A stretch of 11,600 nucleotides of DNA from Actinomycetota bacterium. GTDB lineage: Bacteria > Actinomycetota > Actinomycetes > Nanopelagicales > Nanopelagicaceae. Shown one piece after another: positions 2,575-11,600 of this stretch. Both the position numbers and the translations under genes were made by a program. Under the pieces are notes generated by a model, which saw only the letters and a list, made by a program, of their open reading frames with translations, did no database searches and had not been told where the DNA came from. The stretch lies in assembly GCA_027730465.1 (NCBI GenBank), contig JAQCGQ010000016.1, positions 1-11,600 on the forward strand, given 5' to 3'. Within the stretch, counting starts at the first letter, position 1, and each line of letters starts with the position of its first letter.

Positions 2575-2589
2575 TATAGTTAGCGCGTG
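2575..2589 (+). promoter_or_regulatory. Putative leaderless promoter of crtYc
   Basis: TATAGT (2575-2580) is one mismatch from the TATAAT consensus and ends exactly 6 nt before the GTG at 2587, placing the transcription start on the start codon. No Shine-Dalgarno precedes this GTG, while protein similarity to CrtYc begins right there. It lies back to back with the riboswitch operon's promoter region. Confidence 0.5.
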
Positions 2590-2916
2590 CTTAAGTTTGG
2601 TTATATAGTAATGCTTCTCTTTACGATTTTTGGGTCTTTTTGGCTTGAAATTGTTTTAAAAATTGGTGTGCTAAGAAGAGTTAAGCGATTGGTCCTAAGT
2701 ATATTTCCAGTTTCAATTTTCTTTCTAATTTGGGATGCATATGCAATTTCACAAGGCCATTGGTATTTTGATCAAGAACAAATTCTGGGAATTTTTGGTC
2801 CCTTTGATATACCCCTTGAAGAGTTTTTATTTTTTACGATTATCCCAATTGCTGCAATTATGACAATTGAGGCTGTGCGCACTGTGAAGAAGCATTGGAA
2901 AGTAGGGGATGAGTGA
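2587..2916 (+). CDS. crtYc: Lycopene cyclase subunit CrtYc
   Basis: One half of the heterodimeric actinobacterial lycopene cyclase, a small membrane protein that acts with CrtYd to close beta-ionone rings on lycopene (lycopene -> gamma- -> beta-carotene). Seen: 109 residues, three hydrophobic helices, WLEIVLKIGVLRR (19-31), IWDAYAISQGHW (48-59) and the hallmark PLEEFLFF (76-83). Length fits the usual 100-120. The GTG start at 2587 lets the protein begin with the typical short tail before helix 1; a start at ATG 2611 would cut into the helix. Its stop overlaps the crtYd ATG (TGATG). The C50 cyclases CrtYe/CrtYf are homologous, but no CrtEb-type prenyltransferase is present in this window, so a C40 role is favoured. 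These cyclase genes run opposite to the other crt genes. Confidence 0.92.
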   Translation: MLKFGYIVMLLFTIFGSFWLEIVLKIGVLRRVKRLVLSIFPVSIFFLIWDAYAISQGHWYFDQEQILGIFGPFDIPLEEFLFFTIIPIAAIMTIEAVRTVKKHWKVGDE

Positions 2917-3221
2917 TGGTCTATACAGATATCGCAGTTTTGGCATTCTTATTTTCAATATTTTTTGATCTATTCCTGATTAAAACTAAATTACTTAGGC
3001 GAGCAGCATTTTGGACAAGTTATGCAATTATTTTACCTTTTCAGTTAATTACTAATTGGTGGTTAACCTCAAGAAATATTGTTATGTATAAGCCGGATGC
3101 AATTATAGGAATTAGAGTTGCATCTGCCCCGATCGAGGATCTTTTATTTGGGTTTGCGCTCATACTCTGCGTGATGGCGATGTGGGCATTCTGGGGTAAA
3201 AAAGATATTCAAAAAAGGTAA
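2916..3221 (+). CDS. crtYd: Lycopene cyclase subunit CrtYd
   Basis: Second subunit of the membrane lycopene cyclase; CrtYc and CrtYd are both needed for cyclisation in characterised actinobacterial systems. Seen: 101 residues, three hydrophobic segments, and the family signature APIEDLLFGF (71-80), the counterpart of PLEEFLFF in CrtYc, preceded by DAIIGIRV (61-68). The ATG at 2916 is chosen over the GTG one codon earlier because AGGGG (2904-2908) lies 7 nt upstream and the TGATG overlap with crtYc implies translational coupling. The TAA stop (3219-3221) directly abuts the stop of convergent crtB with no base between, leaving no room for a terminator. Whether one or both ends of lycopene are cyclised cannot be read from sequence. 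Confidence 0.92.
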   Translation: MVYTDIAVLAFLFSIFFDLFLIKTKLLRRAAFWTSYAIILPFQLITNWWLTSRNIVMYKPDAIIGIRVASAPIEDLLFGFALILCVMAMWAFWGKKDIQKR

Positions 3222-4133
3222 TTACCTAGAACTTACTGCCCTTAAATAAGCAGGAGTAGCTACCTTCATTCTTCGCCAATTTGAAGTTTTTGCTCGCTTA
3301 GTAAATATTTGATAATCATTTTTTTCAACTTCATCTACTATTCCACAATAAAGTTCACTTGCTGCCTGAATACAAGCCCGGCTTTGTATCGACAACATTT
3401 TGATTCCAATAGCAGACTCTCGCTGTAGCCTTCTGACCCTTTCAATCTGCTCCTTTAGTGCACTTTTAATTTGTGGTGTAAGGACTTTATCTTCAAGCAT
3501 TTCTCGTGTAACACCATGTGATTGTAATTCAGCAATTGGTAAATAAATTCGTCCTCGATCTAAATCCTCACCTACATCTCTAATGAAATTAGCTAATTGA
3601 AAGGCTATACCAAGTTTTTCCGCAGCAGAATTTACTTCATCAATTGAGCTTCCTTTTTCTGTGCCAAGTATTGAAACCATTTGTAGACCAATAACAGCTG
3701 CTGAACCATACACATACTCCTGAAGATCTTTATACTCTTGATACTCCGTAATAGTTAGATCCATTGTCATAGAATGAAGGAACGCTTGAAAGTATTGAAT
3801 TGGAATATCAAATCTTCTTACGGTATCAACTAGGGCTTTACCGATTACATCATCACTGTTTCCAGATTTAATATCAGAGATAATACCCTCACCCCACTGT
3901 TTTAGTGAGTTAGCTTTTTCTTCATCAGTTAAAGTTGAAGCAAGATCATCTACTATTTCATCTGCGTAGCGAGCAAAGCCATACAGGGCGTGAACAAATG
4001 GCCGTTTTACTGGCGGTAATAGGAGTGTGGCTAAGTAATAAGTTTTACCATGTAGTGAATTAAGACGCTTGCACTCTAGATATGAAGTTCTCAGAGCCGG
4101 ATCAGTTATTCCAGCTTTGGTTAACTCATCCAT
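3222..4133 (-). CDS. crtB: Phytoene synthase
   Basis: Condenses two GGPP molecules to 15-cis-phytoene, the first committed carotenoid step, at the inner face of the membrane. Seen: 303 residues, typical length; YADEIVDD (56-63) as the first Asp-rich Mg2+/diphosphate motif, YGSAAVIG (142-149), and RDVGEDLDRGR (185-195) as the second Asp-rich motif, followed by IYLP. All catalytic aspartates appear intact. It is the last gene of crtE-crtI-crtB, starting 4 bp after the crtI stop, so co-transcription is expected. No clear Shine-Dalgarno precedes the ATG, so translation may depend on coupling to crtI. A squalene/dehydrosqualene synthase is less likely given the Asp-motif context and the GGPP synthase and desaturase in the same operon. 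Confidence 0.95.
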   Translation of the reverse strand: MDELTKAGITDPALRTSYLECKRLNSLHGKTYYLATLLLPPVKRPFVHALYGFARYADEIVDDLASTLTDEEKANSLKQWGEGIISDIKSGNSDDVIGKALVDTVRRFDIPIQYFQAFLHSMTMDLTITEYQEYKDLQEYVYGSAAVIGLQMVSILGTEKGSSIDEVNSAAEKLGIAFQLANFIRDVGEDLDRGRIYLPIAELQSHGVTREMLEDKVLTPQIKSALKEQIERVRRLQRESAIGIKMLSIQSRACIQAASELYCGIVDEVEKNDYQIFTKRAKTSNWRRMKVATPAYLRAVSSR

Positions 4134-4137
4134 TTAA

Positions 4138-5622
4138 TTATTTAACTGGCCCAACAATACGCTCAGCAGCTAATCGTCCTGAGATTAATACCATTGGCAC
4201 ACCAACTCCTGGTTGAGTTCCTGATCCAGCGAAGACAATATTCTCGAAACCTTTTGCCAAATTCTTTGGCCTAAATGGTCCTGTTTGAAAGAAGGTATGG
4301 GCACTTGCAAATGGTGCCCCCTGTTCCATTCCTTGATTTTTCCAATCAAGAGGTGTTGTTAGCTGTTCTACCTCAATTGCATCGCCAAACCCGTCGTAAC
4401 CACGATCTTCCAGAGATTTAATCATTTCATCACGATATCTAGGTCCGATCTTTTCCCAATCAATATCAGCACTTAGATTCGGGGTGGGAAATAATACGTA
4501 ATACGATGATTTACCCGCAGGGGCTAAGGCAGGATCATCTTTTGATGGCACCGTAACTAAAATACTTGGGTCACTCATAAGTGTTTTCTTCTTTATTAGC
4601 TCATCAAAGACACCAGCCCATGATTTACCAAAGTGAATATTATGGTGTGCAAGATGATCATAAGTTTTACTAGATCCGATTAATAAAGTAGCACATGAAG
4701 GGGAGTACTTAAGGCGTTTAATTGACTGTGGCTGCTTACCAAGTAAATCACGCCAAGCAACTGGTAGATCTGGATTTAGCACCACTACATCACAAGGTAT
4801 CCGCTCACCCTTATCCGTTAATACTGCAGTTGCCCGTCCGTTTTTTCTCTCAATTGAGGTAACAGTTGAGCTGTATTTAAAAGTAACGCCATGTTTTTCA
4901 GCAGCACCAGCAAGTGCGCGCGGAACAGCATGCATTCCTCCCTTAGGAAAGAAGACACCATTGACAGAGTCCATATATGCAATCACAGCGTAAATAGCTA
5001 ATGCTTGTTGGGGACTCACACCAGCATACATTGCTTGAAATGAATAAACTTTTTGTGTTCTCGGATCCTTAAGAAATTGATTTACCTTTGGCGCTAATCT
5101 TCGAAATCCCCCAAGTGCAATTAATCTAGCTAAGTTTGGCGTGAGTAAATTCAATGGTGAATCAATATTTCGATCGATGAAATCTTTCATCTCATACTTA
5201 TAAAGTTTTGTCACAAATTTAACGTAGCGAGCATAGCCTTCAGCTTCTTTAGAACTAATAGTTTTAGCAATTTCGGCCTGCATTTGATTTGTATCTGCAT
5301 GCACGTCTAATTGCGAGCCATCATGGTAGAAAGCTCGGTATAAAGGTTTTAATGGAACAAGCTCCAACCAATCCTTAATATCTTCGCCAACGCACGCAAG
5401 TGCATCTGAAATTAAATCAGGCATAGTTAAAACAGATGGTCCCGTATCAAATGAATAACCAGATTTTTTTAGCAGACCATTGCGCCCACCTGGTACAGAC
5501 TCTCGCTCAACAACAGTTACTTTTCGGCCAGCACCAGCAAGCCGCAGTGCTGCACTTAATCCAGCAAGTCCAGCACCAACGACTACAACATGATCAGTTG
5601 GTCCCTTTACCTTTGCTGGCAT
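4138..5622 (-). CDS. crtI: Phytoene desaturase CrtI
   Basis: FAD-dependent desaturase expected to convert phytoene to lycopene in successive steps. Seen: 494 residues; N-terminal Rossmann motif VVVVGAGLAGLSAA (12-25) with an acidic residue ending the second strand (E39); SGYSFDTGPSVLTMP in the region typical of CrtI; and the C-terminal FAD-binding signature AGSGTQPGVGVPMVLISGR. Length matches bacterial CrtI. The ATG lies 3 bp after the crtE stop, and crtB follows by 4 bp, so the three genes form one operon. The position between crtE and crtB supports this copy, rather than the paralogue at 7478-8971, as the phytoene desaturase. The number of desaturation steps cannot be read from the sequence. 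Confidence 0.93.
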   Translation of the reverse strand: MPAKVKGPTDHVVVVGAGLAGLSAALRLAGAGRKVTVVERESVPGGRNGLLKKSGYSFDTGPSVLTMPDLISDALACVGEDIKDWLELVPLKPLYRAFYHDGSQLDVHADTNQMQAEIAKTISSKEAEGYARYVKFVTKLYKYEMKDFIDRNIDSPLNLLTPNLARLIALGGFRRLAPKVNQFLKDPRTQKVYSFQAMYAGVSPQQALAIYAVIAYMDSVNGVFFPKGGMHAVPRALAGAAEKHGVTFKYSSTVTSIERKNGRATAVLTDKGERIPCDVVVLNPDLPVAWRDLLGKQPQSIKRLKYSPSCATLLIGSSKTYDHLAHHNIHFGKSWAGVFDELIKKKTLMSDPSILVTVPSKDDPALAPAGKSSYYVLFPTPNLSADIDWEKIGPRYRDEMIKSLEDRGYDGFGDAIEVEQLTTPLDWKNQGMEQGAPFASAHTFFQTGPFRPKNLAKGFENIVFAGSGTQPGVGVPMVLISGRLAAERIVGPVK

Positions 5623-5625
5623 GAG

Positions 5626-6699
5626 TTAAATCTTTCTATTAGTAGCAAGTATTGCTAATTCTGTTAATAAATTAATTCCTACAGGAGTAATTCCACCATG
5701 TTTTAACGCTGCTAGGGAAGCATCTGTTAGTTCTTTGATCATATTTTCTATGTGAGAAGCAGCACCTGTACTGGTAATTATCTCTTGAAGAAGATTAACC
5801 TGTTCACTTGTGAGGTTTGGGTCACCAAAGTTTGATTTTAAATCCTTTAATTGTCTATCCGTAGCTCGATCCATAGCTACCGCAATTAGTGCAGTTCGCT
5901 TGCCTTCTCTTAAATCATCACCGGCTGGTTTACCTGTTACTGCTGGATCACCAAAAACTCCAAGTAGATCATCGCGCAATTGAAAGGCTTCACCTAGGGG
6001 GATTCCATAATTTGTGTAGGCATCAATTAAATCATTAGATGCTCCAGATAGTGAGGCACCAAAGTGCAATGGTCTTTGGATCGTATATTTACCTGATTTA
6101 TATCTTGCCACCTTAAGTGATCGCTCAATATTTTGTGTTCCAAGAGATTGTTCATAAATATCTAAATACTGTCCAGCCATTAATTCAACTCTCATTTCAT
6201 CATAAACAGGAAGAGTTCTAATCAACTGATCATTTTTAATACCAGATGTATGTAGCATTTGCGCAGACCAAATTAATGCTAAATCACCAATTAATATTGC
6301 AGACGATATTCCAAACTGAGGAGCAGAGCCCACTAGTTGGTTTTTTAAATGCATTTTTTCAAATAGCTTATGAATACTAGGTGATCCTCTTCTAGTATCT
6401 GATCCATCCATAACATCGTCATGAATAAGTGCACAGACATGAATTAGTTCAAGTGATGAGATTGCTTTAATTATCTCTGGCGAAGCATCTGCGCCAGCAC
6501 CTAATAGACCCACATATGCAAATAATGGGCGTAATCTTTTACCGCTATCTAAAAGAAAGGATTCAATTGCCGTGGCAACGGGATCTAATTCGGGGCCAAT
6601 TTTAGCTAGATATTTATTCTCACTTTTAACAAACTCACTTAGCGCCTGATTTATGGCAGAACGCATGGATTTAATATCGGAGGTCGAAGAAAAACTCAC
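5626..6699 (-). CDS. crtE: Geranylgeranyl diphosphate synthase (polyprenyl synthetase)
   Basis: Trans-isoprenyl diphosphate synthase making GGPP from IPP and allylic diphosphates. Residues are numbered from the GTG at 6699 (357 aa). Seen: GKRLRP (53-58), first Asp-rich motif HDDVMDGSDTRRG (93-105), QLRDDLLGVFGD (second Asp-rich motif from ~243), then TGKPAGDDLREGKRT, the layout of actinobacterial GGPP synthases. Start: GTG 6699 is favoured because TACCGT ends 6 nt upstream, as at two other genes here. ATG 6666 (346 aa) is the main alternative, but no Shine-Dalgarno precedes either. The open frame continues upstream to about 6771, but that extension does not look like this family. First gene of crtE-crtI-crtB. 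Product chain length (C20 versus longer) is inferred from the carotenoid context, not from residues. Confidence 0.92.
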   Translation of the reverse strand: MSFSSTSDIKSMRSAINQALSEFVKSENKYLAKIGPELDPVATAIESFLLDSGKRLRPLFAYVGLLGAGADASPEIIKAISSLELIHVCALIHDDVMDGSDTRRGSPSIHKLFEKMHLKNQLVGSAPQFGISSAILIGDLALIWSAQMLHTSGIKNDQLIRTLPVYDEMRVELMAGQYLDIYEQSLGTQNIERSLKVARYKSGKYTIQRPLHFGASLSGASNDLIDAYTNYGIPLGEAFQLRDDLLGVFGDPAVTGKPAGDDLREGKRTALIAVAMDRATDRQLKDLKSNFGDPNLTSEQVNLLQEIITSTGAASHIENMIKELTDASLAALKHGGITPVGINLLTELAILATNRKI

Positions 6700-6711
6700 G
6701 GTGCAACGGTA
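6697..6711 (-). promoter_or_regulatory. Putative leaderless promoter of crtE
   Basis: TACCGT (6706-6711, minus strand) fits TANNNT and ends 6 nt before GTG 6699, the geometry also seen upstream of the PASTA kinase and crtYc. No -35 consensus stands out. If real, it fixes the crtE start at 6699 and drives the crtE-crtI-crtB operon. Confidence 0.4.
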
Positions 6712-6863
6712 CCCTGCTTGCTGTGAGCGATTATCTGAGAACCACCACCTTCTCGCTGAAGTTTTCCCCACCCAAAGATGCAGGCGGTGAGGCTCGGCTG
6801 CGGCCTGCGCTAGTGAGGCGGCATACCCTATTAGTTGTGCAAGAATGTGAGACTAATTAACTT
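6700..6863 (+). other. Divergent intergenic region with GTGAG repeats and an inverted repeat
   Basis: This 164-bp gap separates divergent crtE and the phosphatidyltransferase gene. Its middle part (about 6780-6825) is clearly GC-richer than the flanking DNA. GTGAG occurs at 6723, 6787, 6813 and 6847 on the plus strand, with GTGAGGC exact at 6787-6793 and 6813-6819 and GTGAGAC at 6847-6853. ATTAGT (6830-6835) and ACTAAT (6852-6857) form a perfect 6-bp inverted repeat with a 16-nt spacer. GCAGGC (6780-6785) and GCCTGC (6803-6808) form another. These are candidate regulator sites only; no known operator is recognised. Confidence 0.3.
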
Positions 6864-7481
6864 ATGAAGCAGCAGGATTTTTTCATAATTTGGAGCAAAC
6901 TCCACGGTGATGCAAAAATTGCCGGAATAGTTAAGGCTTGGCTCATAATTTCTTTTGCACTTGTTAAACCGCTTTCAAAACTTAAAGTTACTCCAAATAT
7001 ATTAACGCTTCTTGGCTTATTCTTTGGAATATTACTTTATATAAATGCTCAATCACCTTGGGCTGCACTTATATTAGTTTTATCACTTACCTGTGATGGC
7101 ATTGATGGAAGCCTCGCGATACTAACTTCAAAATTTTCCAAATGGGGCGCACTCCTTGATTCAACTGTTGATCGAATTACCGAAGTTTTTTGGTTGCTAA
7201 CTCTTTATAAAATTGGCGCTGATATAAAGATCCTTCTGGTCATAGCTGTTTTTGCATCAGTTCAGGAGTATTTAAGAGCTCGCGCAGGAGGTTTAGGAAT
7301 GTCACAAGTGGGAGTCGTTACATTTGCAGAAAGGCCAGTTAGAGCTTCATTTATTTTTATTGCACTGATCGCATCAGCAATTGATATTGCAATTATTCCC
7401 CAAATAGTGATTTTTTGGCTATTACTGCAAGTAATTAGTTTTTTTATGATTACTAGATTTATATTTGTAAACTTACGTTAG
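6864..7481 (+). CDS. CDP-alcohol phosphatidyltransferase family protein
   Basis: Integral membrane enzyme family that moves a phosphatidyl (or similar) group from a CDP-linked donor to an alcohol in phospholipid synthesis. Seen: 205 residues, about six hydrophobic helices, and the family motif as D81-G82-x2-A85-I86-x8-G95-x3-D99-x3-D103. All three motif aspartates and the glycines are present, but the usual Arg after the Ala is Ile86. TPNILTLLGLFFG (43-55) precedes the motif as in relatives. The acceptor alcohol is unknown; PgsA- or PIP-synthase-like roles cannot be separated here, and the Arg change argues against a textbook member. No Shine-Dalgarno is visible at ATG 6864; ACTAAT ends 6 nt upstream. 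Its TAG overlaps the stop of the convergent crtI paralogue by 4 nt. Its place among carotenoid genes may be accidental or reflect a membrane-related role. Confidence 0.82.
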   Translation: MKQQDFFIIWSKLHGDAKIAGIVKAWLIISFALVKPLSKLKVTPNILTLLGLFFGILLYINAQSPWAALILVLSLTCDGIDGSLAILTSKFSKWGALLDSTVDRITEVFWLLTLYKIGADIKILLVIAVFASVQEYLRARAGGLGMSQVGVVTFAERPVRASFIFIALIASAIDIAIIPQIVIFWLLLQVISFFMITRFIFVNLR

Positions 7482-8971
7482 GCCTTACCGATCGCATTCG
7501 CGACTATTTCAGCACTTATTCCAACTAGTGGTAAGCCACCACCCGGGTGAGATGAACCACCAACACAAAATAAACCTTTTATTTTTGATCGGTTCTTTGT
7601 GCGCAAAAAAGCAGAGACTGCTGAGTTGCTTGAACTACCATAAATAGAACCACCTGGGGCCATCGCATAGTTTTCAAGATCAGCAGGAGTTCTGTATTTC
7701 ATAAAATCTAATCTAGGGGTGACATTTAAACCAAGATCATCTAACTTTTTAATAATTTTCTGCCCATACTCAGCACCGCCTTGCTGCCAATCCCAGCCAC
7801 CATCTACTTGGTGGCGAGGTGCGTTAACTAGTACAAACCATGCCTCTTTATTTTCTCCCTTGGTCATTTGGGAGTCTTTTGGTGCACATATATAAATTGT
7901 TGGATCCGTAACTGGGATTCGCTTTGTAAAAATATCATCAAATTCATCATCATAATTATTTGGAAAGTAAACATTATGGTGATCAATTGAAACAGCCTCA
8001 CCTTTTGAATTATCTAAGCCAAGTAGGAGTGAAAATCCAGACAAAGATTTAGTAGCTAATTTCAGTTTTCGTCTTTCAGTTCGTGCTCCACTAACATTTT
8101 TAGGCAACAATTTATTATAGATATATTCAGCATCAGAGTTCGCAACTACTAAATCAGATTTAATATCGATTCCATCACTAGTTCTAACCCCAATAGTTTG
8201 ATTATTTTTTACTAATATCTGCGTTACTAAGGTATTAAATTTGAATTTAACTCCTAAGTCAGTACAGCGTTGCTCAAGTGCTGCAGATAGTTGCCCGACT
8301 CCACCTTCAATATGCCAAGCCCCAAATGTGCTTTCAACAAATGCAATAGTCAGTAGTACGGCCGGTGCACTTCGTGGATCACTGCCTGTGTAGGTGGCAT
8401 AGCGGTCCACAATCATTCGTAGATGTGGGTCTAGTTTTAATTTCTCACTTAATTTGCGAAGTGAAGTAAAAGGTGCGATGTCTTTAATTTCACGAAGTAA
8501 GTTTTTACGTTTAAGTAGCGAGAAAATTGATTTTAACTCCGATTCGATAAAAGGTTCACGGGATACTTCCCACATTCGTTCTGCTCGCTTTATTAATTCT
8601 TTCCATTGATTACCTGCCACTAGACCGTATGATTTTTCAATTTCAATATAAGTATAAGGATTAGACAGATTTGGAAATAAAACTGAACTACCATCTGAAA
8701 AATGATAATTGAATGCAGGGTCAACCGGCTTAATATTTAAAATATGCTCTATACGTTTACCAGTTTTAAGAAATAAATCACGATAAACAGCCGGGAGTGT
8801 TAACAGTGATGGGCCTGTATCAAATGCATAGTCACCAAACCATTCAGTTCTACACTTACCACCTGAGCGTTCACTATTTTCATAAATAGTTACATCATGT
8901 CCTGCTTTAGCAAGTCGCGCCCCAGCGCTCATTCCACCTATACCTGCACCGATTACTGCAATATTTGCCAC
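7478..8971 (-). CDS. CrtI-family carotenoid oxidoreductase, probably CrtD-like C-3',4' desaturase
   Basis: Second member of the phytoene desaturase flavoprotein family in the window, 497 residues from GTG 8971. Seen: NIAVIGAGIGGMSAGARLA (3-21) Rossmann motif, SGGKCR, FDTGPSLLTLPAVYRDLF, FNYHFSDGS, and the C-terminal FAD signature HPGGGLPLVGISAE. It is clearly diverged from CrtI at 4138-5622. It lies directly downstream of cruF and the glycosyltransferase; by family knowledge CrtD acts on CruF/CrtC-hydrated psi-ends to introduce the 3,4 double bond, so CrtD is the best fit. A ketolase/oxygenase of the CrtO/CrtP type is the alternative. Start: GTG 8971 overlaps the glycosyltransferase stop by one base (TAGTG), like other junctions here; TTG 8995 would add eight residues before the FAD fold. 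No Shine-Dalgarno is visible for either. Confidence 0.8.
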   Translation of the reverse strand: MANIAVIGAGIGGMSAGARLAKAGHDVTIYENSERSGGKCRTEWFGDYAFDTGPSLLTLPAVYRDLFLKTGKRIEHILNIKPVDPAFNYHFSDGSSVLFPNLSNPYTYIEIEKSYGLVAGNQWKELIKRAERMWEVSREPFIESELKSIFSLLKRKNLLREIKDIAPFTSLRKLSEKLKLDPHLRMIVDRYATYTGSDPRSAPAVLLTIAFVESTFGAWHIEGGVGQLSAALEQRCTDLGVKFKFNTLVTQILVKNNQTIGVRTSDGIDIKSDLVVANSDAEYIYNKLLPKNVSGARTERRKLKLATKSLSGFSLLLGLDNSKGEAVSIDHHNVYFPNNYDDEFDDIFTKRIPVTDPTIYICAPKDSQMTKGENKEAWFVLVNAPRHQVDGGWDWQQGGAEYGQKIIKKLDDLGLNVTPRLDFMKYRTPADLENYAMAPGGSIYGSSSNSAVSAFLRTKNRSKIKGLFCVGGSSHPGGGLPLVGISAEIVANAIGKA

Positions 8972-10035
8972 TATTTTACCGGCCGATCTCGCCAAGTTAA
9001 ACTTTTAGTTATTTTACCAAACCATGAATATGCAATTAAGCCAATCAAAAATAATATTGCTATTGGATGTAGTAGGGCTGTGTTCGGCTGAGAATTAGTT
9101 CTAATTGAAGAAAAAATTCTACTAAGGAATATTAGGCCAAATGATATTAACCCAATCTCCGAGCCAAATAAAGCGGTAATAAAAGGTAGAACTCCAGTTA
9201 CGAATAGAAAAGTAATGGCAGCAATACTTCCGAGGGGTGAACCAAAAGCTCGCCAAAGTGATTTTTGATAACCCTTAATTAGTTGCATAGGCGTGTCATA
9301 CATTTGGCAAGTTGCAACATTACTTGCTTCAGCAACCCCACCCTTGAAACCAGTCTTGAGTAGTTGTCTTGCAATCATCAAATCATCTAAAATTTCAGAC
9401 TTTATAACCTTAAAGCCACCTGATTTCAAATAGGCATCTCTTTTTATAATAAGGAACTGACCATTTGCCACTGCCATCGATTTAATTGAAAATTTATGAC
9501 TGATAATTAATGGTACAGACGCAAGCCAAGACCATTGAAGTAATGGCTGAAATAGCCTTTGTATAAATCCACTAGCTATCTGCTTAGGATAAGCAGAAAT
9601 AAAATCCCAATCTTGCATTTGCTTAATTGCCGAAGCAACTGCATTTGGAGTGAGTCTTACATCAGCATCTATAAAGACCAGATATTTCCCGCTGCTTGCA
9701 GTCACTAATTGCTCTAAAGCCCACAACTTACCTAGCCATCCATCGGGTAGTGATTTTCCACTTAAAAGTTTAATATCGGAAAATTCAGATAATTCCCTCA
9801 CAGTTTGATCTGTTGAGCCATCATCTACTACCAATACTTCAAAATTCTCTAGGCCAATTTGTGAAGTTAGAGTGGCCACACAATTAGCTGCATTCTTCTC
9901 TTCATTGCGCATTGGGATTAGAATTGAAACAGATTCACTTACCTTTGCGGACTGATTTCGTACAACTCTAATTGTTAAGCTATTAAGAGTTACAAGTGCT
10001 AAGACAAGGCATGATAATGCCAGAGATATTTCCAT
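8971..10035 (-). CDS. Family 2 glycosyltransferase, CruG/CruC/CrtQ-like
   Basis: Predicted membrane GT-A glycosyltransferase that attaches a sugar to a hydroxylated carotenoid. Seen: 354 residues; N-terminal hydrophobic anchor (3-24); VSILIPMRNEEKNA (36-49); VVDDGSTD (69-76); DAD (123-125) as the metal/nucleotide-sugar binding motif; GQFL (192-195); DDLMIARQL (217-225) where the catalytic acidic residue is expected; YQKSLWRAFG (256-265), resembling a QxxRW site; and three C-terminal transmembrane helices (about 270-342). It overlaps cruF by one base (TAATG) and the crtD-like gene by one base (TAGTG). Adjacent cruF and a GT2 gene recall cruF-cruG of cyanobacterial myxol glycoside synthesis; CruC of green sulfur bacteria is a similar enzyme acting on a 1'-OH. 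Which hydroxyl and which sugar cannot be read from sequence. Confidence 0.83.
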   Translation of the reverse strand: MEISLALSCLVLALVTLNSLTIRVVRNQSAKVSESVSILIPMRNEEKNAANCVATLTSQIGLENFEVLVVDDGSTDQTVRELSEFSDIKLLSGKSLPDGWLGKLWALEQLVTASSGKYLVFIDADVRLTPNAVASAIKQMQDWDFISAYPKQIASGFIQRLFQPLLQWSWLASVPLIISHKFSIKSMAVANGQFLIIKRDAYLKSGGFKVIKSEILDDLMIARQLLKTGFKGGVAEASNVATCQMYDTPMQLIKGYQKSLWRAFGSPLGSIAAITFLFVTGVLPFITALFGSEIGLISFGLIFLSRIFSSIRTNSQPNTALLHPIAILFLIGLIAYSWFGKITKSLTWRDRPVK

Positions 10036-10847
10036 TAATCGTTAGCTGGTGGGCCAAAACGTAAAACAAAGATATAGGGCAGTAAAATTAATCCAAATAC
10101 CACTCCACCTATTAGGGCTACTCCTGGTTTATCAAAAAAGAAAATATTTCCAACTACTCCCGCAAATAAAGTCCAAAAAAGAAAAAAATCTGGCACAACA
10201 GTAGAAGTTTTAGTCTTTCGTCGATCTACTTGTAAAAACTTATTTAAAATTGCCATTAGACCCATACCGGTTAATAGCCATCCGAACGCATTTGAGAGTG
10301 GAATTTCTGGTTGAAAGGGTACGTGCGAACCAGAAAAATCCCATCGCCATCTTTCGGCCGCAACCATTTGTGGATCTAGAAATAAGTCCCAAGCCATCAT
10401 TCCCAAACCACCATAAAGGAATACCCAATTTTTTGTTATTTTCCGCGCAGCAATTAGTAATGGATGAGCGATCATTACCCATGCGAATGGAACTACTAGC
10501 GGTACGCCATATATTTGATAACCCAAAGATCCAGAGTACTCATAATCTCCAAATGGCCAGCCGGTTTTGCTACCAATCTGCTCAATAATTAGGGCATATG
10601 TAAATGTTGTCGTTAAGAAAATTAGAGCATAATTAATTCCATACGCAAGTAAGGCATGTATACACATGGCAGCAGCAGCCCAATAAACAGTTGCAATCGT
10701 GACAACTCTTAGAGCTTCACCATCAATTAATGGATAAGAAATTTGAAGTACGATTGCAATCGCAGTTGCTATATAAAGTATTGCTATTTTCCATGATGAA
10801 ACTTGGTGGCGACTATTTCGTTTTGGATAAAACTGGCGTAATGACAT
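10035..10847 (-). CDS. cruF: CruF carotenoid 1,2-hydratase (DUF422 family)
   Basis: Membrane enzyme adding water to the terminal double bond of an acyclic carotenoid end, giving a tertiary 1'-hydroxyl. It is unrelated to CrtC and is known from Deinococcus, cyanobacterial and haloarchaeal (bacterioruberin) pathways. Seen: 270 residues, about seven hydrophobic helices; IGSKTGWPFGDYEYSG (91-106); LGYQIYGVPLVVPFAW (108-123); WDLFLDPQMVAAERWRW (153-169); LSNAFGWLLTG (184-194). These conserved His/Asp/Trp-rich loops are the family hallmarks, and length fits. It starts 17 bp after the CrtA-like gene, with no visible Shine-Dalgarno; CACAAT ends 6 nt before the ATG and might be an internal promoter. 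Its stop overlaps the glycosyltransferase start (TAATG). With CrtYcd in the same cluster, gamma-carotene or lycopene is the likely substrate. Confidence 0.9.
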   Translation of the reverse strand: MSLRQFYPKRNSRHQVSSWKIAILYIATAIAIVLQISYPLIDGEALRVVTIATVYWAAAAMCIHALLAYGINYALIFLTTTFTYALIIEQIGSKTGWPFGDYEYSGSLGYQIYGVPLVVPFAWVMIAHPLLIAARKITKNWVFLYGGLGMMAWDLFLDPQMVAAERWRWDFSGSHVPFQPEIPLSNAFGWLLTGMGLMAILNKFLQVDRRKTKTSTVVPDFFLFWTLFAGVVGNIFFFDKPGVALIGGVVFGLILLPYIFVLRFGPPAND

Positions 10848-10864
10848 GGGGTAATTGTGCCGTA

Positions 10865-11527
10865 TTACTTAAGATTGCCCCGCTCTTGTATAACTGCAAA
10901 CCGGGAAAATAGCTCTTCTGAGTACCACTTATTCTCTTCAGTCGCCTTTATAGCCTGAGTGTGCGCCTGGCCCTTGTAGGCGAACTCTCTAAGGTGAGCA
11001 GAACTTTCCCATAAAGAAAACGTCCCCTGTAATCCAATAGGTGCCTCACCAATTCCTATGGCATTTATCAAACCCGGAGATTGATGAAGACTAATCGTTA
11101 CTGGTGGAACTGCTCTCCAAAAAACTACATTTTTTCTCCAAACGATTCTTGCTCGAGTGATGGCGGCAATTTTTCCATTCCAATCTAATTTTTTAACTTC
11201 AAATGGTTGCTTACCTGACCATAAGCCATGCACGGAAACGGGTTTTAAAACTGCTCTGTACTCTTGCTTTGCAATTTTATTCCATCCTCTAATAGCCTTA
11301 GAATTATCCAGATTATCTAAGTGATTTTCCTTGATTGTAACTAAAGCACCCCATCTATATGGATTGGCATCTTTTGGAGTAAAACTCTCACCTTCTCCAG
11401 TTCCAAGTAGTTTCACAAATGACACACCTGGCAATCTCATTAGCGCAAACTTATGAAATGCCATAAAAAGTATGGCAATTGGTAGGAATACTTTTTTAAT
11501 CTGCCAGAAATACACAACAGTAATCAT
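10865..11527 (-). CDS. CrtA (spheroidene monooxygenase)-like carotenoid oxygenase
   Basis: 220-residue protein of the CrtA-like monooxygenase family. Purple-bacterial CrtA is a heme enzyme that oxidises C-2 of psi-end carotenoids to a ketone. Seen: HKFALMRLPGVSFVKLLGTG (25-44), GESFTPK (46-52), HGLWSGKQPF (100-109), ITRARIVW (123-130), FWRAVPPV (136-143), GIGEAPIGLQGTFSLWES (158-175), QAHTQAIKAT (187-196) and WYSEELFSRF (201-210), the conserved blocks of the family in order. The start ATG 11527 has GGAG (11535-11538) 7 nt upstream and overlaps the alpha/beta-hydrolase stop by 4 bases (ATGA). Followed after 17 bp by cruF. Placement with cruF and a crtD-like gene supports action at C-2' next to the CruF-made 1'-hydroxyl. 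Some relatives in other phyla are uncharacterised, so the exact reaction is inference. Confidence 0.8.
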   Translation of the reverse strand: MITVVYFWQIKKVFLPIAILFMAFHKFALMRLPGVSFVKLLGTGEGESFTPKDANPYRWGALVTIKENHLDNLDNSKAIRGWNKIAKQEYRAVLKPVSVHGLWSGKQPFEVKKLDWNGKIAAITRARIVWRKNVVFWRAVPPVTISLHQSPGLINAIGIGEAPIGLQGTFSLWESSAHLREFAYKGQAHTQAIKATEENKWYSEELFSRFAVIQERGNLK

Positions 11528-11600
11528 TTAGCAACTCCGGTAGTTGACATAATTTCAGATGTAACCTCAGTTGGGCTATCCCACATAGGTACATGACCAG
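11524..11600 (-). CDS. Alpha/beta-hydrolase, C-terminal end only
   Basis: Only the last 24 codons and the TGA stop are in the window; the gene starts beyond the right edge. The visible tail begins GHVPMWDSPTEVTSEI, the pattern at the end of alpha/beta-hydrolase-fold proteins, where the His is the catalytic triad histidine followed by P-x-x-D-x-P. Its TGA overlaps the ATG of the CrtA-like gene (ATGA), so the two are translationally coupled and the hydrolase belongs to the carotenoid tailoring operon. Substrate unknown; an esterase or acyl-transfer role on a carotenoid is possible but nothing visible demonstrates it. Confidence 0.65.
   Translation of the reverse strand, partial: GHVPMWDSPTEVTSEIMSTTGVAK

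Follow-up and report, generated by a model that had tools for sequence, protein, structure and literature searches.

The window considered here, that is, the whole stretch of DNA that was analysed, is one entire contig of 11,600 bp (JAQCGQ010000016.1, hereafter C10) from a 911-kb, 68%-complete genome of Candidatus Nanopelagicus (acI), and it encodes a carotenoid gene cluster whose open reading frames (ORFs) and families, called from Pfam and NCBIfam profile scores (with NCBIfam cut-offs where stated), agree with those listed in an earlier note on this DNA. On the forward strand lie the genes for two lycopene cyclase subunits, crtYc (2587-2916; TIGR03462 64 bits, PF18916 31 bits) and crtYd (2913-3221; TIGR03462 62 bits, PF18916 48 bits), both above the TIGR03462 cut-off of 39.4, with crtYc falling among operon-type copies in a tree. 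On the reverse strand follow crtB for phytoene synthase (3222-4133; PF00494, SQS_PSY, 221 bits; motifs DEIVDD and DVGED), crtI for phytoene desaturase (4138-5622; TIGR02734 524 bits, cut-off 238) and a crtE-like gene for a polyprenyl diphosphate synthase (5626-6771; PF00348, polyprenyl_synt, 178 bits; motif DDVMD).

Four tailoring genes complete the set, all on the reverse strand: a crtD-like 3',4'-desaturase gene (7478-8995; 331 bits with the CrtD model NF045637, whose cut-off is 580, and fewer, 296, with the CrtI family, whose cut-off is 238), a CruG-like glycosyltransferase family 2 (GT2) gene (8971-10035; PF00535 79.5 bits; CruG leads the NCBIfam models at 108 bits against a cut-off of 600; DAD motif), a cruF-type 1',2'-hydratase gene (10035-10847; PF04240 123 bits; TIGR03460 109 bits, cut-off 154.7) and a gene for a crtA-like C-2' oxygenase (10865-11527; 155 bits with NF045923 against a cut-off of 300; without a Pfam family match). 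We call the last product CrtA-like because the cut-off of NF045923, the spheroidene monooxygenase model, is reached in none of 161 genomes sampled from the order and none of 394 sampled from the class; searching PDB sequences with a CrtA profile gave two matches (E 0.49 and 0.7), neither credible. Neither a CruD-type acyltransferase nor CrtEb, the enzyme of the C50 route, was seen in the window, and no genome-wide search for either was made.

This cluster is a real, conserved operon under purifying selection. In all 20 loci hand-picked among the order sample's 148 CrtA-positive genomes, the genes run CrtA-CruF-GT2-CrtD-CrtE-CrtI, with a gene for a CDP-alcohol phosphatidyltransferase on the opposite strand between CrtD and CrtE, and one locus (L087) has one additional gene after CrtD. 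CrtB comes next in 19 of the 20 (two other genes intervene in L088), while the contig of L092 stops 1.6 kb past CrtI, without CrtB. Against the nearest complete relative (G019), the ratio of nonsynonymous to synonymous substitution rates (dN/dS) is 0.03-0.17 across ten genes, with 0.03 for crtI, 0.08 for crtA and 0.11 for the GT2 gene. Relative to G019, crtA and the GT2 gene are the least conserved of the crt cluster. Gene order kept in every chosen locus and ratios in this range together argue that the cluster is not a product of chance. At the level of the class, 28 short loci with the best scores were inspected, and matches to CrtA, CruF and GT2 lie together in 10 of them, from six other families. 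Several records, L158 among them, carry a CrtA similar to that of this freshwater order under the title Bifidobacterium breve and look mislabelled.

Functionally, we posit, with a probability of about two in three, that the product is a monocyclic C40 carotenoid glycoside, namely a deoxymyxol glycoside that would resemble phleixanthophyll rather than salinixanthin. Gene families, synteny, selection and distribution are observed here, and to them we add by inference every reaction and position, the identity of the sugar and the role of the pigment: CrtE would supply geranylgeranyl diphosphate, CrtB phytoene and CrtI lycopene, CrtYcd would close one beta-ring to give gamma-carotene, CruF would hydrate C-1', the CrtD-like enzyme would desaturate C-3',4', the CrtA-like enzyme would add a hydroxyl at C-2' (a ketone being less likely), and the GT2 enzyme would add a sugar to O-1' or O-2'. 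The aglycone would then be deoxymyxol, of the plectaniaxanthin type, with its beta-ring unsubstituted; its calculated mass is 568.43 Da and that of the hexoside 730.48 Da, and the pigment would be orange with a torulene-like spectrum. In work on Nonlabens, CruF, CrtD and a CrtA-type hydroxylase introduced stepwise into carotenoid-making Escherichia coli have yielded 1'-hydroxytorulene and deoxymyxol, and myxol when CrtZ was included (PMC11855829). The deoxymyxol/myxol-type gene set is complete in that lycopene cyclase, CruF, CrtD and CrtA-type homologues are present together, and it is these window homologues, with the GT2 gene, that lead us to predict a deoxymyxol glycoside. Relative to the Nonlabens pathway (PMC11855829), the CruF, CrtD and CrtA-type steps and the monocyclic product are shared, whereas here CrtYcd takes the place of CrtY, there is an additional GT2 gene, and a CrtZ family match is absent in the genus. 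A carotenoid of strain IMCC13023 with m/z 591.4946 has the nominal mass of sodiated deoxymyxol, but we do not take it as support, because it is 131 parts per million off and crtEb has been reported in Luna-1 genomes (PMC12422013).

That the pigment has a single ring, as the earlier note held, gains support from where crtYcd lies. It adjoins crtB, on the opposite strand, in 15 of the 19 chosen loci that have crtB, and in Nanopelagicus in all 10 informative loci (the window and L073-L081), among which only one genome (G093) has a match to blh. The two candidate genes for forming retinal are scarce in the genus: blh is matched in 2 of 25 congeners (of which only 4 are near-complete, meaning here and below at least 90% complete), compared with 75 of the 161 order genomes and none of 14 control genomes, RPE65 is matched in none of the 25, and both are absent from the window's own incomplete genome and from the complete congeners G008, G011 and G019. 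Since crtYcd is kept in the operon in a genus mostly without blh, its ring would serve the operon product and not retinal. Outside the genus, crtYcd adjoins blh in the 28 distinct blh loci that we fetched (29 rows, picked from hit tables), with an opsin at the same locus in G028 and G062. Twelve genomes carry two copies, and 11 of the second copies lie beside crtB or pnuC; the context could not be resolved in L257, which holds the twelfth, nor in L277 and L279, and in G021 and G017 crtYcd stands apart from both blh and the operon. On a tree of 72 crtYcd rows (70 different), genomic context requires 8 changes, against a mean of 28 for shuffled labels. Because the blh-associated copies fall into more than one clade (3 changes) and bootstrap values were still unsettled, we do not claim a single crtYcd duplication.

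The same counts go against the idea that one cluster furnishes both a retinal precursor and an antenna, and we regard a role of the cluster in retinal supply as weakly indicated. The opsin-bearing acI tribes A7 and C1 have already been described as lacking blh (PMC5301498), and a retinal-independent scramblase activity has been described for a Nanopelagicus actinorhodopsin (PMC12805836). One blh match (G141:C2:125453-126244) contains six in-frame stops and resembles a decaying copy.

The families searched for ring oxygenation gave no sign of it. We take CrtW and CrtR to belong to PF00487 and CrtZ to PF04116; the FA_desaturase profile PF00487 was matched in none of the 25 congeners, 4 of them near-complete, and in 5 of 14 known genomes serving as positive controls, and the FA_hydroxylase profile PF04116 likewise in none of the 25 and in 2 of the 14. 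The CrtO model NF045689 is above its cut-off in none of the 25, and in G019 its only matches are CrtD and CrtI. The keto group named in the heading of the earlier note is thus unsupported for the ring; a ketone at C-2' is possible. A third CrtI-family flavoprotein, CrtO-like at 115-119 bits, was considered as a ketolase and set aside as weak, having no match in the window genome or in G019. In L112 (G162) and L116 (G008) this flavoprotein adjoins a gene that is photolyase-like by eye, and in L110 (G092) and L111 (G165) two divergent CrtO-like flavoproteins stand beside genes that look thioesterase-like and MmgE/PrpD-like.

Several points weigh against a deoxymyxol glycoside with an unsubstituted ring. 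The CrtA, CruF, GT2 and CrtD scores all lie under the NCBIfam equivalog cut-offs, so that the exact reactions of these four enzymes are themselves inferred. For the ring, crtYcd is not beside crtB in 4 of the 19 chosen loci with crtB, no crtYcd match is found in 8 of the 161 genomes, including the near-complete members G044, G114 and G124 of genus g3, and both blh-positive congeners have blh without crtYcd nearby, so that the operon copy there may also serve retinal. CrtO-like proteins do occur in some congeners (115-219 bits, cut-off 1000; the best about 219 in G092 and about 205 in G165), and a ring oxygenase of an uncharacterised family, or a cytochrome P450 (P450s were not searched), may be present. 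Lastly, the GT2 enzyme could use another acceptor.

Two alternative products were weighed. If CrtA were a ketolase, the cluster would yield a 2'-keto-1'-hydroxy (or 1'-glycosyloxy) carotenoid, and indeed the sole NCBIfam match of the protein is spheroidene monooxygenase, a 2-ketolase, and the Rubrivivax CrtA hydroxylates twice and so behaves as a ketolase (Klassen, PMC2889829). We consider this unlikely, given that the score reaches only about half of the cut-off and that the flavobacterial CrtA-type hydroxylase goes no further than the alcohol (PMC11855829). Less probable still is that the GT2 enzyme glycosylates a non-carotenoid, such as a hopanoid-like or lipid acceptor, and leaves the carotenoid free: its second-best NCBIfam model is HpnB (94 bits) and, with crtA, it is the least conserved of the crt genes relative to G019, but it sits between cruF and crtD in all 20 chosen loci and accompanies CrtA and CruF in the six other families. 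Of the salinixanthin/myxol-type structure put forward in the earlier note, the psi-end gene logic is supported, CruF, CrtD and a hydroxylating CrtA-type enzyme being enzyme types proven for myxol (PMC11855829), and a ring keto group is unsupported.

The earlier note also raised a possible antenna; a dedicated role as antenna of actinorhodopsin, with the beta-ring lying in the fenestration beside retinal as salinixanthin does in xanthorhodopsin (XR), we judge rather doubtful. The window's own genome, 68% complete, yielded no opsin, but all 11 other members of the genus in the order sample have one. We examined 41 opsin ORFs, 40 of them distinct, which come from 40 of the order's 132 opsin-positive genomes and cover all 11 of the genus, aligned to the references 3ddl, 6nwd and 7ytb. 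Equivalents of the fenestration glycine (XR G156) and of XR Tyr207 are present in all 41, and of the two pocket-bottom positions in the genus the first is Ile and the second Leu, in one case Ile, hydrophobic residues like those of XR and Gloeobacter rhodopsin (GR). At the position of Kin4B8 Ser208 all 41 have Ile, Met or Val; at that of Kin4B8 Tyr209, 28 have Leu, Ile or Val, 9 have Gly and 4 have Asn. By these alignments the pocket resembles those of XR and GR, whose ligands are 4-keto pigments, more than that of Kin4B8 (PMC12308411). On the other side, known ring ketolase or hydroxylase families have no match in the genus; salinixanthin no longer binds XR or GR once its 4-keto group is reduced, and Kin4B8 does not bind beta-carotene (PMC12308411). 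Experiments on a Luna-clade actinorhodopsin point both ways: isothermal titration calorimetry indicated an interaction with the native carotenoid and pumping was initially faster, but the total pH change was not raised by the carotenoid, canthaxanthin was unbound and salinixanthin lowered the pumping rate (PMC8113403).

Distribution is similarly divided. Within the order, CrtA is matched in 126 of 132 opsin-positive and 22 of 29 opsin-negative genomes (Fisher p 0.002), and among near-complete genomes in 83 of 84 and 15 of 21, respectively (p 0.0002), which favours a link with the opsin. However, few independent events lie behind the association, since the six near-complete opsin-less genomes without CrtA are all members of a single genus, g3, and the 15 of 21 have kept CrtA with no opsin to serve. 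Two of these six (G007 and G081) keep CruF, GT2, CrtD and crtYcd without opsin or CrtA. In three complete congeners the opsin is unlinked to the cluster, lying about 214-256 kb away. Of 353 genomes outside the order, 112 match CrtA at E 0.001, some of them weakly. Among the 29 with an opsin 14 have such a match, and among the 324 without one 98 do (Fisher p = 0.06); opsins had to pass the Pfam cut-off, so that G256 and G511, with weaker opsin matches, were scored as negative. Because most CrtA-positive genomes outside the order are opsin-less, the pigment would be more general than the opsin. An antenna function is partly supported, with the conserved fenestration glycine of the relatives' opsins among the points in its favour and this wider distribution among those against it. 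As a pigment common in actinobacteria, the deoxymyxol glycoside would probably serve first of all to protect membranes and to guard against photo-oxidation, with binding to actinorhodopsin a possible additional role. That a widespread freshwater actinorhodopsin uses a monocyclic glycoside with an unsubstituted ring as antenna or structural partner, taking its retinal from outside, would be a long shot on present sequences; if true, such an antenna would break the rule requiring a 4-keto or 3-hydroxy ring.

Two neighbouring genes complete the locus. The CDP-alcohol phosphatidyltransferase gene (6864-7481, forward strand; PF01066 44 bits), found between crtD and crtE in all 20 chosen loci, is syntenic but probably not carotenogenic. 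Between it and crtE there is a gene-sized gap in 16 of the 20 (for example, L073, L074 and L085), and the gene concerned is missing in the window (6772-6863), L075, L078, L087, L089 and L236; it appears metF-like by eye (ten translations, no family search), and we discarded it as not carotenogenic. At the other end, the operon continues beyond position 11,600, its start lying outside the window, into an alpha/beta-hydrolase gene whose 3' end (11524-11600, reverse strand) overlaps the crtA start codon. Sixteen of the 20 chosen loci, and two of four further ones, have a homologue upstream of crtA, while none lies near the 28 class-level crtA genes (short loci); from this placement the hydrolase may be a pathway member. 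In L232 and L237, where crtA is lost, the hydrolase gene remains next to cruF. A whole copy lies on contig C9 (L093:10637-11476), which terminates within a crtA start that at the protein level matches its C10 counterpart with 96% identity; strain variation may have split the assembly between C9 and C10.

Among known pigments, the nearest comparison is phleixanthophyll, which we take to be deoxymyxol 1'-glucoside and to be made by actinobacteria such as Mycolicibacterium phlei and Gordonia. The product predicted here would be identical or very near to it, and its producers belong to the same bacterial class. Mycoloyl esters are reported from phleixanthophyll producers and would require other enzymes. 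Salinixanthin, of Salinibacter and Rhodothermus (PMC5822342), is the second comparison. It too has one ring and a glycosylated psi-end, oxygenated at C-1' and C-2' and desaturated at C-3',4', but its ring bears a keto group at C-4 and it is esterified with a fatty acid, whereas here there is no ketolase family match, nor a CruD-type gene in the window. In Rhodothermus marinus a form lacking the ring keto group is made as well, and no CrtA homologue was found there by the authors (PMC5822342). With XR and GR, the relatives' opsins share the fenestration glycine and Tyr207, and the predicted pigment differs in its unsubstituted ring.

The cluster is thus a real, conserved operon of known kind with a specific predicted product. 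The structure first proposed is partly supported and right in outline, a ring keto group and the retinal role are unsupported, and an antenna role is a possibility. Freshwater actinobacterial carotenoid pathways have been described as biochemically uncharacterised except for two retinal-forming dioxygenases (PMC11577799), and among the literature matches listed, a coverage that leaves out most subscription papers, we found no description of a CrtA-CruF-GT2 operon in acI. As crtYcd belongs to the pigment operon where blh is lacking and adjoins blh in many blh-bearing genomes, the purpose of carotenoids in cells unable to form retinal is now directly testable. The hosts are among the most abundant bacteria of lakes, and for them the cluster offers a concrete, testable carotenoid structure.

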